In this document: piece by piece, positions 1 to 37,225 of the stretch
Position numbering within the stretch: the first letter of the stretch is position 1
Layout: every line of letters begins with the position of its first letter
The notes under the pieces: generated by a model
What the model saw: only the letters and a program-made list of their open reading frames with translations
Database searches by the model: none
Told to the model about the DNA's origin: nothing
Assembly: GCF_017104565.1 (NCBI RefSeq)
Contig: NZ_JAAGPD010000041.1
Coordinates: 1-64,000, forward strand
DNA from: Paraburkholderia sp. Tr-20389
Lineage (GTDB): Bacteria; Pseudomonadota; Gammaproteobacteria; Burkholderiales; Burkholderiaceae
Direction: 5' to 3'
DNA length: 64,000 nt
Translations under genes and position numbers: made by a program

Positions 1-190
1 CGCGTGAAGCGTAAGAACTGTTGGGGGCCCGCAGGCAGGAACAAGGATTGGCGGTGTGAGCCCGCTTTCTTTGCTTACTTTCTTTGCGGCGGCAAAGAAA
101 GTAAGTGCCGCCCCGCACAGGGGCAACGCCAGCAAACCAGAGACAAACCGCGGATGCCAACGAGAGTGCAAAAGCAAACCGCGGATGCGG
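1..190. repeat. Half copy of the long palindromic intergenic repeat (copy A)
   Basis: This stretch matches the right-hand arm of the two full palindromic repeats near 30.5-31.1 kb and 35.0-35.9 kb. It holds the GTTGGGGGCCCGCAGG block (18-33), the GGCGGTGTGAGCCCGC block, a perfect 14-bp hairpin (arms 74-87 and 92-105, loop GGCG) and the GCCGCCCCGCACAGGGGCAAC edge. Two copies of CCGCGGATGC follow at about 148 and 179. The other half lies before the window. The element ends about 90 bp past the livF stop codon. Short ORFs here are by-products of the repeat. Confidence 0.85.
74..105. repeat. Perfect 14-bp hairpin inside repeat copy A
   Basis: CTTACTTTCTTTGC at 74-87 pairs perfectly with GCAAAGAAAGTAAG at 92-105 around the four-base loop GGCG. 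The same hairpin recurs at 30553-30584, 35174-35205 and 35679-35710, and a varied version is at 31058-31091. Confidence 0.9.
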
Positions 191-30379: not shown

Positions 30380-30756
30380 GGTTTTCTTGAGCGCCTGCGT
30401 GGCGCGGGCGTTTTTTGGTTTTTGCGCGCCTGCGTGGGTGTTTGTGGTTTGGTTTTCCGCTTTCGATGGCATCCGCGTTTTGCTCGTTTGCTTTCGGTGG
30501 CATCCGCGTTTTGGTGTTGGTAGGTCATGCGTTGCCCCTGTGCGGGGCGGCACTTACTTTCTTTGCCGCCGCAAAGAAAGTAAGCAAAGAAAGCGGGCTA
30601 ACACCGCCAGCCCTTGTTTTTGCCTGCGGGCCCCCAACAGTTCTTACGCTCCACGCGGCAACGTGTTATTTCATGCGCGTTGCCAGCGTGCTAACTGCAC
30701 GCATCACCCGCTTCACGCTCCCGCGTCACGATCTGCGTTACCAGACGTCCATCGCC

Positions 30757-30886
30757 GCCCAGGTGGCAAACTGTGTGTAGGGTGTCGCGATGGAAGTGCA
30801 CCACTCCGGACTGAAAAGCGGGATTGGTGTCGTAGGATCGCTAACGCATACGGTGCGACAAGCTACACACAGTTTGCCACCTGGGC
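30757..30886. repeat. Inner stem-loop of repeat copy B
   Basis: Perfect 24-bp inverted repeat around a conserved core of about 82 nt. Each arm carries GGTGGCAAACTGTGTGTAG or its complement. The equivalent in copy C is 27 bp at 35376-35402 and 35483-35509. Confidence 0.88.
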
Positions 30887-31057
30887 AGCGCAGTCGAGTC
30901 GCTGCCGCTGGCTGCCTGCGAGTGATTGAAGTGGGTGAGGCGCCTGTTCAGGGCGCTGGCAACGGGCGCAAAACAAAGTGTTGCCGTATGGAGTGCGGGA
31001 CCCGTTGGGGGCCCGCAGGCGAGTACAAAAGCTAGCGGTGTGAGCGGCTTTCTTTTG

Positions 31058-31091
31058 CCTACTTTTCTTTGCCGCTGCAAAGAAAAGTAGG
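31058..31091. repeat. Covarying 15-bp hairpin in the right arm of copy B
   Basis: CCTACTTTTCTTTGC (31058-31072) pairs perfectly with GCAAAGAAAAGTAGG (31077-31091), loop CGCT. Relative to the other copies one T-A pair became C-G and one base pair was inserted, with pairing kept on both sides. Confidence 0.9.
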
Positions 31092-31190
31092 TGCCGCCCC
31101 GCACAGGGGCAACGCATGAACGACCAACACCAAAACGCGGATGCCAGCGAAGAAAAAACCCGGCAACGCCGCGCCGCAGGCAAAGACCCG

Positions 31191-33530: not shown

Positions 33531-35042
33531 ATGGTCAACACTCCGCCACTACTTGCCGCCGTCGATCTCGGCTCGAACAGCTTCCGTCTGATCGTGGGCC
33601 GCGTCGAGGAAACCGAAGCGGGCAGCCAGATCTATCAGGTCGACGCGCTGCGCGAACCGGTGCGGCTCGGCGCGGGCCTGTCGCGCGAAAAAATGCTCGA
33701 CCGTGCTTCGCAGGTGCGCGGCTGGGACGCGCTCAAGCGCTTCGGCGAACGTCTGCGCGACTTCCATCCCGACCATGTGCGCGCCGTCGCGACCAACACG
33801 TTGCGCGTCGCGAAGAACGCGCAGGAATTTCTCGGCGAAGCGGAAGCGGCGCTCGGTTTCCCCATCGAAGTGATCGCGGGTCGCGAAGAAGCCCGCCTGA
33901 TTTATGCGGGTGCTGCACATTCGGTGCCGGCAAGCGCGGGCAAGCGGCTCGTCGTGGACATCGGCGGCGGCTCGACGGAATTCATCATCGGTTCGCACTA
34001 CACGCCGATCCGTATGGAAAGCCTGTACATCGGCTGCGTGAGTCACAGCCGCCAGTTCTTCCCGGCGGGCAACGTCGACGAGTACACGATGCGTCAGGCC
34101 GAGCTTGCGGCCTCGCGCGAAATCCAGATCATTTCGGCCGACTACAAGGGCGAGGGCTGGGACCAGGGTATCGGTTCGTCGGGTACGGCGCGCGCGCTTG
34201 CCGAGCTGGTCGAAGCAAACGGCTTCAACGACCCGGGCATCACGCATGGCATTTCGCGCGGCGGCCTCGAGCGTCTGAAGCGTGCGTTGATCAAGGCGGA
34301 GAACGTCAACCGGTTGAAGCTGATCGCGCTGAAGCCGGATCGCGTGCCGGTGCTGGCGGGCGGCCTGTCGATCATGATCGCGGTGTTCGACGAACTGGGC
34401 GTCGACTACGTCGACACGACGGACGGCGCGCTGCGTCTTGGCGTGCTGTATGACCTGCTGGGGCGCTCGCAGCATCAGGACATGCGGACCATCACGGTTG
34501 AGGGCTTCATGCGCCGCTATGGCGTCGATCGTGCGCAGGCGAGCCGCATTGGCGAGCTTGCGGTGCACTTCTACGATCAGCTCGACGAACCCGATACGGA
34601 AGCGCGCGAAGAGAATCGCATGTTCCTCGGCTGGGCGGCCGCGCTGCACGAAATCGGGCTATCGATTTCACACAGCGCTTATCACAAGCATTCTGCGTAC
34701 ATCGCGAGCAATGCGGACATGCCGGGGTTTTCGCGCACCGATCAGGCGCGTCTTGCGGCGCTTGTCGTCGGGCATGCGGGCAAGCTGGCGAAGCTTGCGC
34801 AGACGCGCGATCTCGAATGGAAGCTGCTGTTCTGCCTGCGGCTCGCGGCGCTGTTTTGCCGCCGCCGGGCGGATGCCGGTTTGCCGGAGATCTTCGTTGC
34901 CGAGGCGAATGGCGGGTATGAGGTTCGATTGCCCAATTCGTGGGTCGCGAATAATCCGCTCACTGACTATAGCCTCATTCAGGAGGCGGCTGAGTGGGAG
35001 AAGATTCGGACATCGTATCGGGTTGTGTATACCGATGATTGA
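33531..35042 (+). CDS. ppx: Exopolyphosphatase (Ppx/GppA family)
   Basis: Releases phosphate from polyphosphate chain ends; this family also hydrolyses pppGpp. 503 aa. Seen: the first ASKHA phosphate loop LAAVDLGSNSFRLIVG, the second VVDIGGGSTEFIIG, the GSSGTARAL region, and a C-terminal HD-like helical domain (LHEIGLSISHSAYHKHSAYI). The ATG at 33531 starts the conserved part; upstream in-frame methionines at 33513 and 33453 are possible. It is divergent from ppk, so synthesis and breakdown of polyphosphate share a control region. The stop is the edge of repeat copy C. Confidence 0.95.
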   Translation: MVNTPPLLAAVDLGSNSFRLIVGRVEETEAGSQIYQVDALREPVRLGAGLSREKMLDRASQVRGWDALKRFGERLRDFHPDHVRAVATNTLRVAKNAQEFLGEAEAALGFPIEVIAGREEARLIYAGAAHSVPASAGKRLVVDIGGGSTEFIIGSHYTPIRMESLYIGCVSHSRQFFPAGNVDEYTMRQAELAASREIQIISADYKGEGWDQGIGSSGTARALAELVEANGFNDPGITHGISRGGLERLKRALIKAENVNRLKLIALKPDRVPVLAGGLSIMIAVFDELGVDYVDTTDGALRLGVLYDLLGRSQHQDMRTITVEGFMRRYGVDRAQASRIGELAVHFYDQLDEPDTEAREENRMFLGWAAALHEIGLSISHSAYHKHSAYIASNADMPGFSRTDQARLAALVVGHAGKLAKLAQTRDLEWKLLFCLRLAALFCRRRADAGLPEIFVAEANGGYEVRLPNSWVANNPLTDYSLIQEAAEWEKIRTSYRVVYTDD

Positions 35043-35375
35043 GTTTTGTCTGCGACGCAGTCGCCATTTTTGCCTTCTCGGCGCGGGCTTCGCCTTTTAG
35101 GTTTCGCTCTGCAGGTTCGCTGGCATCCGCGTTTTGTCTCTGGTTTGCTAGTGTTGCCCCTGTGCGGGGCGGCACTTACTTTCTTTGCCGCCGCAAAGAA
35201 AGTAAGCAAAGAAAGCGGGCTCACACCGCCAATCCTTGTTCCTGCCTGCGGGCCCCCAACAGTTCTTACGCTTCACGCGGCAACGCACTTGCTTTCGCGC
35301 GTTACCAACGCGCTAAGGCACGCATCACCCACTCCACACTCCCGCGTCACGGACTGCGTTACCAGACGTCCACTG

Positions 35376-35509
35376 CCGCCCAGGTGGCAAACTGTGTGTA
35401 GGCCGTCGCGACGGAAGTGCACCACTGCGGACTAAAAAGCGGGATCGGTGTCGTAGGAGCGGCAACGCATGCGGCGCGACAACCTACACACAGTTTGCCA
35501 CCTGGGCGG
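35376..35509. repeat. Inner stem-loop of repeat copy C
   Basis: Perfect 27-bp inverted repeat (35376-35402 with 35483-35509) enclosing 80 nt. The enclosed core closely matches copy B (GGAAGTGCACCACT, GCGGGAT.GGTGTCGTAGGA) and is the best-conserved single-stranded part of the element. Confidence 0.9.
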
Positions 35510-35821
35510 CGCGGACGATTCGCTGCCGCTGGCTGCCTGCGGGTGAATGGAGTGGGTGATGCGCCTGTTCGAGGCTCTGGCAACGGGCGCAAAACGATGT
35601 GTTGCCGTGTGGAGTACGGGACCCGTTGGGGGCCCGCAGGCAATCAAACGGGCTGGCGGTGTGAGCCCGCTTTCTTTGCTTACTTTCTTTGCGGCGGCAA
35701 AGAAAGTAAGTGCCGCCCCGCACAGGGGCAACGCATGAAGTACGAAGACATCACGCGGATGCCAGCGAAAGCGAAACCGAAACCGAAACCGAAAGCGCAG
35801 GGCAAAACCCAGAAGGCGTAG

Positions 35822-35878
35822 CCCACGCCGAGAAGGCAACCCCACGCCGAGAAGGCAACCCCACGCCGAGAAGGCAAA
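35822..35878. repeat. Three tandem 19-bp repeats in the right arm of copy C
   Basis: CCCACGCCGAGAAGGCAAC occurs three times head to tail (last base differs in the third). The left arm carries only one equivalent (about 35069-35087), so this looks like local expansion of one unit of the palindrome arm. GAAACC also repeats three times just upstream. Confidence 0.85.
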
Positions 35879-35911
35879 AATGGCGACTTCGTCGCAGACA
35901 AAAAAGCAGAA

Positions 35912-37225
35912 TCAAGCGGCGGTCGACTGAAGCCGCGCACTCCGGGCAACAGGAAACCGAACGGTAAACGTACTCCCCCGCCCTTCTTCGCTCTTCACCT
36001 CAAGCTGCGCATCATGCCGCTGCAACACATGCTTGACGATGGCAAGCCCAAGCCCGGTCCCACCCGTATCACGTGACCGACTCCGATCGACGCGATAGAA
36101 CCGCTCAGTCAACCGTGGAATATCCGCGGCAGGAATCCCCAACCCGCTATCGCTAACCGAGAACGTGGCCTGCCCGCCCTGAGCGTGCCAGCTCACATTG
36201 ATCGACCCGCCGTCAGGCGTATACCGAATCGCATTCGTAACGAGATTGCCGAACGCGCTCATGATCTCCGTCTCGACGCCCGTCACCGTCAACGCCTCGT
36301 CGGCCTCGAAGCCGATCCGGTGACGTCCACCCGACAGGCTCTGCGCATCGTCCTCCAGATGCCGCAGCACCGCGCGCATATCCACCATCTGGTTGCTCGG
36401 CGGCTTGTTGTCGCCTTCGAGCGTCGCCAGCACCAGCAGATCGCTGACGATATGCTGCATCCGCTGCGCCTGCTGCATCATCAGATCGAGATAGCGAACG
36501 CGCTCGCTCTCGTCGAGCGGTATCTCTCGCATCGTTTCGAGAAAGCCGGACAGCACCGTCAACGGCGTCTTCAGTTCGTGCGACACGTTGGCCACGAAGT
36601 CGCGACGCATCGCATCCGTGCGCTCCAGTTCCGTAATGTCCTGCGACAGCACCAGCTTGCGGTTCTCGCCATACGGAAACACCTGAACGGACAGCACGTT
36701 CTGACGCTTCTCGCCCATCCCGCGCATGATCAGCATCTCTTCATAATGATGAGAGTTCAGATAGCGGACGAAGTCGGGATGACGCACGAGATGCGTGATG
36801 TGCTGACGCAAATCGCGCTTCGCGTCGAGGCCGAAATGCTCTTCGGAAATCGCGTTGCACCACTCGATCTGATCGTGATCGTCGAGCATCGCGACGCCGT
36901 TCGGCGACGCCTGGATCGCCTGAATGAACCGCGAATGCTGCTGCTCGACCTGGCGCACCTGCGCGTGCCAGCGCTTCGCGAGCTTGTGCAGCCGGTAGTA
37001 GATTTCGCCCCAGATGCCCGGTGCGCTCGGCACTTCGCCATACACCGGCGCATCGAGCAGACGCCACAGGCGCTGCTTGTGGAACGTGCTGAAGATGCCT
37101 TGCGCGAGCAGCGCGAGCACGGCGATCGCCAACGCCGCTTTCGTGTTGACGAAGATGCCGACTGCCACGCACAACACAGCGAGGAGCACAAGCGATACCA
37201 GGGAGCGTGCCCAGATGATGTTCAT
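35912..37225 (-). CDS. phoR: Phosphate regulon sensor histidine kinase PhoR
   Basis: Inner-membrane sensor kinase of 437 aa that phosphorylates or dephosphorylates PhoB depending on phosphate uptake. Two membrane segments lie within residues 8-45, with no periplasmic domain, as usual. A cytoplasmic charged region follows, then a PAS domain from about 95 to 200 (FIQAIQASPNGVAML), the phosphorylated His216 in NVSHELKTPL and the ATPase boxes (NAIRYTPDGG, DSGLGIPAADIPRLTERFYR, GTGLGLAIVKH). AAGG lies 6 bp before the ATG at 37225. It follows phoB on the same strand. Confidence 0.96.
   Translation of the reverse strand: MNIIWARSLVSLVLLAVLCVAVGIFVNTKAALAIAVLALLAQGIFSTFHKQRLWRLLDAPVYGEVPSAPGIWGEIYYRLHKLAKRWHAQVRQVEQQHSRFIQAIQASPNGVAMLDDHDQIEWCNAISEEHFGLDAKRDLRQHITHLVRHPDFVRYLNSHHYEEMLIMRGMGEKRQNVLSVQVFPYGENRKLVLSQDITELERTDAMRRDFVANVSHELKTPLTVLSGFLETMREIPLDESERVRYLDLMMQQAQRMQHIVSDLLVLATLEGDNKPPSNQMVDMRAVLRHLEDDAQSLSGGRHRIGFEADEALTVTGVETEIMSAFGNLVTNAIRYTPDGGSINVSWHAQGGQATFSVSDSGLGIPAADIPRLTERFYRVDRSRSRDTGGTGLGLAIVKHVLQRHDAQLEVKSEEGRGSTFTVRFPVARSARLQSTAA

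Follow-up and report, generated by a model that had tools for sequence, protein, structure and literature searches.

A dispersed quasi-palindromic element of Paraburkholderia with shared two-hairpin ends, differing cores and a preference for the 3′ ends of genes

The convergent genes ppx and phoR of Paraburkholderia sp. Tr-20389 (identities from Pfam) are separated by a gap filled almost entirely by a single long inverted repeat. What is this element, and why does it lie where two transcripts would meet? The window, by which we mean the whole 64,000-nucleotide stretch of DNA that was analysed, contains two full copies. The first lies where a GNAT-domain gene and ppk converge (30380–31190); the second, at 35044–35903, lies in the ppx–phoR gap and was characterised by inverted-repeat search, folding and a sliding-window scan. 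As the first-pass annotation had it, 35044–35903 is one long quasi-palindrome. The stop codon of ppx ends at 35042, leaving one base before the element, and that of phoR begins at 35912, leaving eight bases after it. The outer arms on the ppx side (35044–35090, forward strand) and the phoR side (35857–35903, reverse strand) are 94% complementary over 47 nucleotides, and the outermost 40 nucleotides carry the single mismatch originally described (39/40 pair, 98%). The long inverted arms, 35116–35307 (forward) and 35578–35769 (reverse), form a 192-nucleotide pair with 81% complementarity. The end module consists of hairpin 1 (GTTGCCCC-TGTGC-GGGGCGGC, 35153–35173) and hairpin 2 (perfect 14-bp stem, 35175–35206), both on the forward strand, with the phoR-side hairpin 2 (35679–35710) and hairpin 1 (35712–35732) on the reverse strand. 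Perfectly paired inner arms (35375–35402, forward; 35483–35510, reverse) enclose an 80-nucleotide unpaired centre (35403–35482), which is strongly conserved in an alignment of 112 copies though it lies mostly outside the long stem. The perfect inner repeat around an 80-nucleotide core had thus been seen correctly, but its length is 28 bp rather than 27 bp. Three tandem 19-bp units are located in the right outer arm (35822–35878).

The predicted minimum free energy of the element is −605.9 kcal/mol, whereas 20 dinucleotide shuffles average −341.2 (sd 8.3), which gives z = −32. Scanning 294 segments of 860 bp over the 64 kb, with the first half of each aligned to the reverse complement of the second, gave the top score (164) for the ppx–phoR element. 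The runner-up is the other copy of the window, at 30.3–31.2 kb (130); segments overlapping either copy score 82 and 52, the next 28, and the median is 13. The element had been said to code for nothing plausible, and its open reading frames have no Pfam family match at the curated cut-off; one gives two sub-threshold hits (E 0.04 and 0.06). A coding role was rejected because the frames, of 120–137 amino acids, match no family and the hairpin variants differ by single-base indels. The arms read inwards yield similar spurious frames (30863–31183, reverse; 35046–35435, forward; 35432–35845, reverse), and such frames may be annotated elsewhere as hypothetical proteins. None of the 112 copies lies under a called gene, and the aligned copies are likewise inverted repeats. 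In these respects it is, as proposed, a structured noncoding element.

The first reading treated the element as a feature of the ppx–phoR gap alone. It is instead a genome-wide repeat with about 117 copies in the genome. The inner arm has 117 forward and 116 reverse matches in its own genome (up to three mismatches), and a reversed control has none on either strand. A search of the same genome gave 161 first-look candidates. Forty were scored, the query itself among them; the other 39 match at 84–91% in one orientation, and all 40 also match in the opposite orientation at 72–79%. Full copies are about 690–860 bp long. The window also holds the outer-arm motif of a further copy, cut by its left edge (105–124, reverse strand). 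The motif lies right where the contig begins, as though assembly had failed within the repeat, and other matches near contig starts (e.g., G000 C57:699 and C21:74) suggest breaks in the repeat as well.

In a search of the genus, the inner arm of core A, the core type described above, occurs in 9 of 118 Paraburkholderia genomes. Eight of these carriers have 113–181 inner-arm matches per strand and one (G096) has 5 and 4. As many relatives lack it, the element is not essential. Across the bacterial family, 57 of 299 genomes have the outer arm, and these belong to 4 of 25 genera. In an exact pattern scan of named genomes, the matches listed come from Burkholderia sp. Ac-20365 (most loci) and Paraburkholderia sp. 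C35 (one); our genome G043 is probably the same as Ac-20365, and the two are not independent. Among plasmid and chromid records, 16 match, with 332 places in all; they come from Paraburkholderia (caribensis, largidicola, phymatum, terrae and others) and, as partial matches, from Caballeronia. The best match has no annotated feature beneath it in 15 of the 16; the remaining record is unannotated. No record of the phage collection searched with the element matches, and a phage origin was set aside on this ground. An apparently element-free region of the chromosome proved to be an artefact of the match listing.

The gap itself has a history. In 28 of 31 genomes the 1.5 kb behind ppx yielded no phoR, and the ppk–ppx pair is turned round in G000, G020 and G096, which form one clade. 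A blastn comparison of four genomes, three of them non-carriers and the fourth G043, shows ppx followed by the GNAT-domain gene, which the window has on the far side of ppk. G001 carries elements both between phoR and ppk and behind ppx. The ppx–phoR gap arose by inversion of ppk–ppx between two copies; the simplest account of the gene orders is that recombination between two elements inverted the pair.

The ends of the element are more widespread than its core. The end hairpin is found in 65 of the 118 genus genomes; in several of those listed it comes in pairs spaced by about 400 bp. From each of four genomes two of these pairs were read, and all eight proved to be long inverted repeats that share the ends but have other cores. 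Hairpin 1 follows the pattern GTYGCCCC-TGTGC-GGGGCGGC, a constancy that is partly by construction, as the 305 arm sequences were picked by a pattern holding its stem. The stem of hairpin 2 varies between variants by paired changes (CTTACTTTCTTTGC, CCTACTTTTCTTTGC, CCTACTTCTCTTTGC).

The end module resembles Rfam family RF02421 (Bp1_684, ‘Burkholderia sRNA’). The window arms score 27.2 and 23.7 bits, below the curated 44 bits; arms elsewhere in this and other genomes pass this cut-off (best 47.0 bits, in G000). Carriers have many matches (90 in G000, at least 150 in G001, 146 in G096). Ten loci fetched from among the best hits (L307–L316) are different in kind: every one is in the aceF–lpdA gap, and neither L307 nor L308, the pair examined, is a long inverted repeat. 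The aceF–lpdA module shares hairpin 1 with the element, differs from it in the loop of hairpin 2, and continues with CAAAAGAAAG. Element ends of G003 are identical to the G038 aceF–lpdA module at 90/95 and 83/88 positions, and those of the window element at 64/74 and 58/64, far above shuffles. Judged by these alignments, the element ends are homologous to the conserved aceF–lpdA intergenic module, and the aceF–lpdA copy would be the older because it is present in other genera. The hits in L307–L316, around base 1500–1620, mark a conserved two-hairpin module of aceF–lpdA, and the sRNA label deserves review.

A second core type, core B, dominates G096 (107 and 104 matches). Its sister G020 has 2 and 2 matches to core B and 117 and 113 to core A; other genomes have 0–2 matches to core B, with 0–1 in controls. 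Around the ppx copy, G020 and G096 agree in their outer flanks at 86/90 and 78/88 positions, the left-flank score is 68 (other own-genome copies, at most 37.5), and the end modules are alike. Further in, 410 and 293 nucleotides align with a score of 14.0, near chance (100 shuffles based on the G000 core reach at most 13.5). G000 and G020 agree at 335 of 396 inner positions. Six comparisons at four further loci also give unrelated inner parts (scores 9.5–16.5), with outer flanks mostly too diverged to judge. As read from these alignments, the core was exchanged in place at the ppx locus, the one locus where this is seen; for the remaining loci we infer the same. A few core-B elements are located in genomes dominated by core A (L260, G000 C60:1–2341; L255 and L264 in G020) and are a possible source of the exchange. 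Two loci of G110, L297 and L298, appear by eye to hold the same core in opposite orientations. Regular spacing of arms or cores at about 140 bp and about 427 bp, at the listed positions G146 C30:140599–141006 and G096 C1:2414212–2415292, suggests tandem arrays of element pieces.

The positions of the elements are largely shared between species. Six loci have both flanks in a contiguous stretch of G001: the element is present there at all five that come from the genome of the window (L001 via the inverted order) and absent at the one from Ac-20365. Ten G001 elements have flanks in the G096 stretch; six were detected there by the two-arm finder, three by one arm plus a core-B match, and one site is empty, so that 9 of 10 are occupied. 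The sequences, by comparison, go with the genome. When 73 elements were placed in a tree (31 from the genome of the window, 25 drawn at random from the 76 of Ac-20365, 11 from G001 and six other ppx copies), they grouped by genome or close relatives, with eight changes for nine labels, the minimum possible, the labels including G043, which is probably Ac-20365. G096 was left out because its core does not align. In the ppk–ppx tree the carriers form one side of a branch (100/99). The two outer arms of a copy are on average more alike than arms of different copies, both in the genome of the window (32.5 versus 24.8; 0.1% of 2000 permutations) and in Ac-20365 (30.4 versus 28.4; 0.65% of permutations), a pattern that fits occasional copying from arm to arm.

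Placement relative to genes was determined for 112 full copies, the 30 best-scoring from the genome of the window and 82 from loci L031–L114. Genes were called by a codon-usage finder made for this analysis, which recovered the 3′ ends of ppx and phoR correctly. The 95 copies with a gene on both sides lie in 45 convergent, 43 co-directional and seven divergent gaps, as compared to 47, 248 and 69 of the 364 element-free gaps in L031–L114; the preference for convergent gaps (45/95 versus 47/364) has p = 4e-12. Contiguous 400-kb stretches give the same picture, with 8 of 11 elements convergent in G001 (39 of 316 gaps) and 6 of 8 in G096 (44 of 317 gaps), where the finder required both element ends. 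In co-directional gaps, the element is nearer to the 3′ end of the upstream gene in 33 of 43 cases. T-rich sequence and TTTGTCTGCGACGC often directly follow the stop codons in the 29 tight convergent gaps listed.

These are the places where terminators are expected. All nine carriers have the element in the ppx gap, and none of 22 non-carriers has a consensus match there; a hairpin plus T run is present in all five non-carrier gaps read by eye. Other terminators were called by a lenient rule of our own, which misses cases such as the terminator kept at G001 908037. In the near non-carrier G005 (1.42 Mb), 21 distinct gaps orthologous to element gaps could be aligned and nine have a terminator, which over all 21 is no significant excess (43/155 in the convergent background, p = 0.20). 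In subsets chosen post hoc, 8 of 9 non-divergent gaps of up to 520 bp have one, as do all six convergent orthologous gaps of up to 520 bp (40/123 of gaps of 40–520 bp, p = 0.0016). At the same loci, a terminator was detected beside the element in 0 of 5 in G001; in the genome of the window one was detected at L004 and L014 and none at L002, L011 and L013. Applied to the copy at ppx, the rule picks out hairpin 1 and nothing else. A general depletion of terminators in element gaps was rejected (16/52 with a terminator versus 24/67 of the other convergent gaps of carriers). Seven terminators are kept outside the element in 35 convergent gaps of up to 1300 bp, and all seven face it. A terminator-like hairpin plus T run behind the GNAT-domain gene (30392–30417, forward strand) likewise faces the 30380–31190 copy. 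At G005 C26:196595–198724, about 2.1 kb of other DNA with gene-like stretches occupies the place where carriers (G001 1157118, L009) hold the element.

Our structural and positional data suggest that this is a dispersed 3′-end element, which probably terminates transcription in both directions and owes its uniformity to gene conversion, a reading to which we give a little better than an even chance. Both transcripts would meet the same module first, this module is the most widely conserved part, and it lies where terminators are expected; together these point to a bidirectional 3′-end element. At several loci the palindrome stands where a relative has an intrinsic terminator, which we count for termination as the plausible and leading function. 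In the proposed mechanism, two inverted two-hairpin end modules enclose an exchangeable core that is itself palindromic. Polymerase arriving from either flanking gene would first transcribe the GC hairpin 1 and then a U-rich stretch that doubles as the 5′ side of hairpin 2; it would stop at the end module, or a processed 3′ end would be left there, so that the element would serve both directions as terminator or insulator. The shared ends would let gene conversion keep copies alike, and pairs of copies could recombine and invert the DNA between them.

The details of the end module do not fit this reading neatly. Hairpin 1 is followed by A-C-T/C-T-A-C before TTT, so the intrinsic-terminator form, with a T run directly behind the stem, is absent; the U-rich stretch starts six bases behind the hairpin, and the terminator rule calls hairpin 1 in some copies only. 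The outer tips run from T to A, the reverse of intrinsic-terminator polarity. Neither edge is a canonical terminator, which counts against termination. The first-transcribed half has more C than G in all 110 core-A copies measured; loading of Rho by this bias was rejected as an explanation, as the sign is opposite in 2 of 8 variants, and is kept as a weak idea only. More tentatively, and at somewhat less than an even chance, one Paraburkholderia lineage may have swapped the cores of about 100 positionally conserved 3′-end elements in place for an unrelated palindromic core while keeping the aceF–lpdA-derived frame; the set would then represent a lineage-specific, genome-wide replacement of terminators, with drive acting on noncoding DNA.

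The strongest competitor, possible but in our judgement short of probable, is that the element is a selfish nonautonomous mobile repeat that settles harmlessly beside terminators and serves no host function, the species-specific sequences reflecting bursts of re-insertion or overwriting. Its copy number is high, the carriers form one clade in the ppk–ppx tree, and terminators are kept beside some copies, always facing the element. At one site G001 carries the element and G096 does not: G096 has a gap of 93 bp with a terminator there, and G001 retains a slightly degraded form of that terminator, with the element just past its T run. A target duplication is not evident at this single compared site (by eye, with ill-defined edges), and no carrier-specific Y1 (RAYT-type) gene was found; a weak Y1_Tnp match is present in 12 of 12 genomes, carriers and non-carriers alike, and the only extra strong match is in the non-carrier G005. 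The suggestion of a nonautonomous mobile element in the first-pass annotation is supported, as to dispersal, by the copy number and the filled and empty site; no transposase or target duplication was found. Positions largely common to the species and native terminators undetectable at several carrier loci argue against a purely selfish repeat.

It is unlikely that the element acts chiefly through its long stem, as an RNA stability or double-stranded RNA element, shielding the 3′ ends of mRNAs or serving as an RNase III substrate. The folding z-score, the location directly behind stop codons and the retention of long inverted repeats with other cores in all eight variants read would agree with such a role, but the stem needs transcription across the whole element. 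Within core A, arms pair with their own partners at 97.63%, as compared to a mean of 97.52% (maximum 97.64%) when partners are shuffled among copies of the same genome. Own-arm pairing being within the shuffle range, there is no excess of compensatory change, and present selection on the long stem is not seen; compensatory selection was rejected accordingly. A DNA-level element, whether a cruciform or a protein-binding site for chromosome organisation or topology with the hairpin dyads as binding sites, is decidedly improbable. The end hairpins are perfect DNA palindromes and the unpaired centre of core A is conserved, but this model does not predict placement at 3′ ends, and the cores in other genomes are unrelated; we know of no binding protein for the element. 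An assembly or sequencing artefact has a negligible chance, for while this genome is a draft of 129 contigs with a copy at the start of the window's contig, the same family occurs in named, independently assembled records and in carriers with four to six contigs, which refutes it.

Dispersed intergenic palindromes are a known kind of bacterial repeat, and the element, being present in many copies, intergenic and inverted, belongs among them. It shares with REP/BIME and REPIN sequences a dispersed, palindromic and extragenic nature, frequent location behind genes and more than 100 copies, but is 450–860 bp long with two-hairpin ends and exchangeable cores. REP units are tens of bases long (about 20–40 nucleotides), unlike the full copies here; a RAYT-driven REP was rejected because no carrier-specific Y1 gene was found. 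ERIC, NEMIS, RIME and other larger intergenic palindromes too are dispersed noncoding palindromes of one bacterial group; the present element is longer, lies at gene 3′ ends and has a core exchanged between sister species. Bacterial MITEs are similarly noncoding, with terminal inverted repeats and many copies, whereas here nearly the whole element is inverted repeat and no related transposase or target duplication is seen. Among the copies encountered, none was noticed that is longer and contains a gene, as an autonomous transposon with shared ends would. Bidirectional intrinsic terminators of convergent genes occupy the same place, and the element would likewise serve both genes; it differs in size (860 bp versus about 30 bp), in the opposite T/A polarity of its edges and in having no T run directly behind the stem. 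A literature search, including one by the letters of the element, found nothing on this repeat family, and the long folded repeat family is apparently undescribed so far.

For carrier genomes, the data indicate that the Rfam-listed sRNA Bp1_684 is mostly the end of a repeat. The element family accounts for one inversion, that of ppk–ppx. If the reading as a bidirectional 3′-end element is true, a single repeated element can take over the ends of about 100 transcription units in a bacterial genome, with its copies updated jointly; culturable soil strains would then allow tests both of concerted evolution in bacterial noncoding DNA and of the way native terminators are lost.
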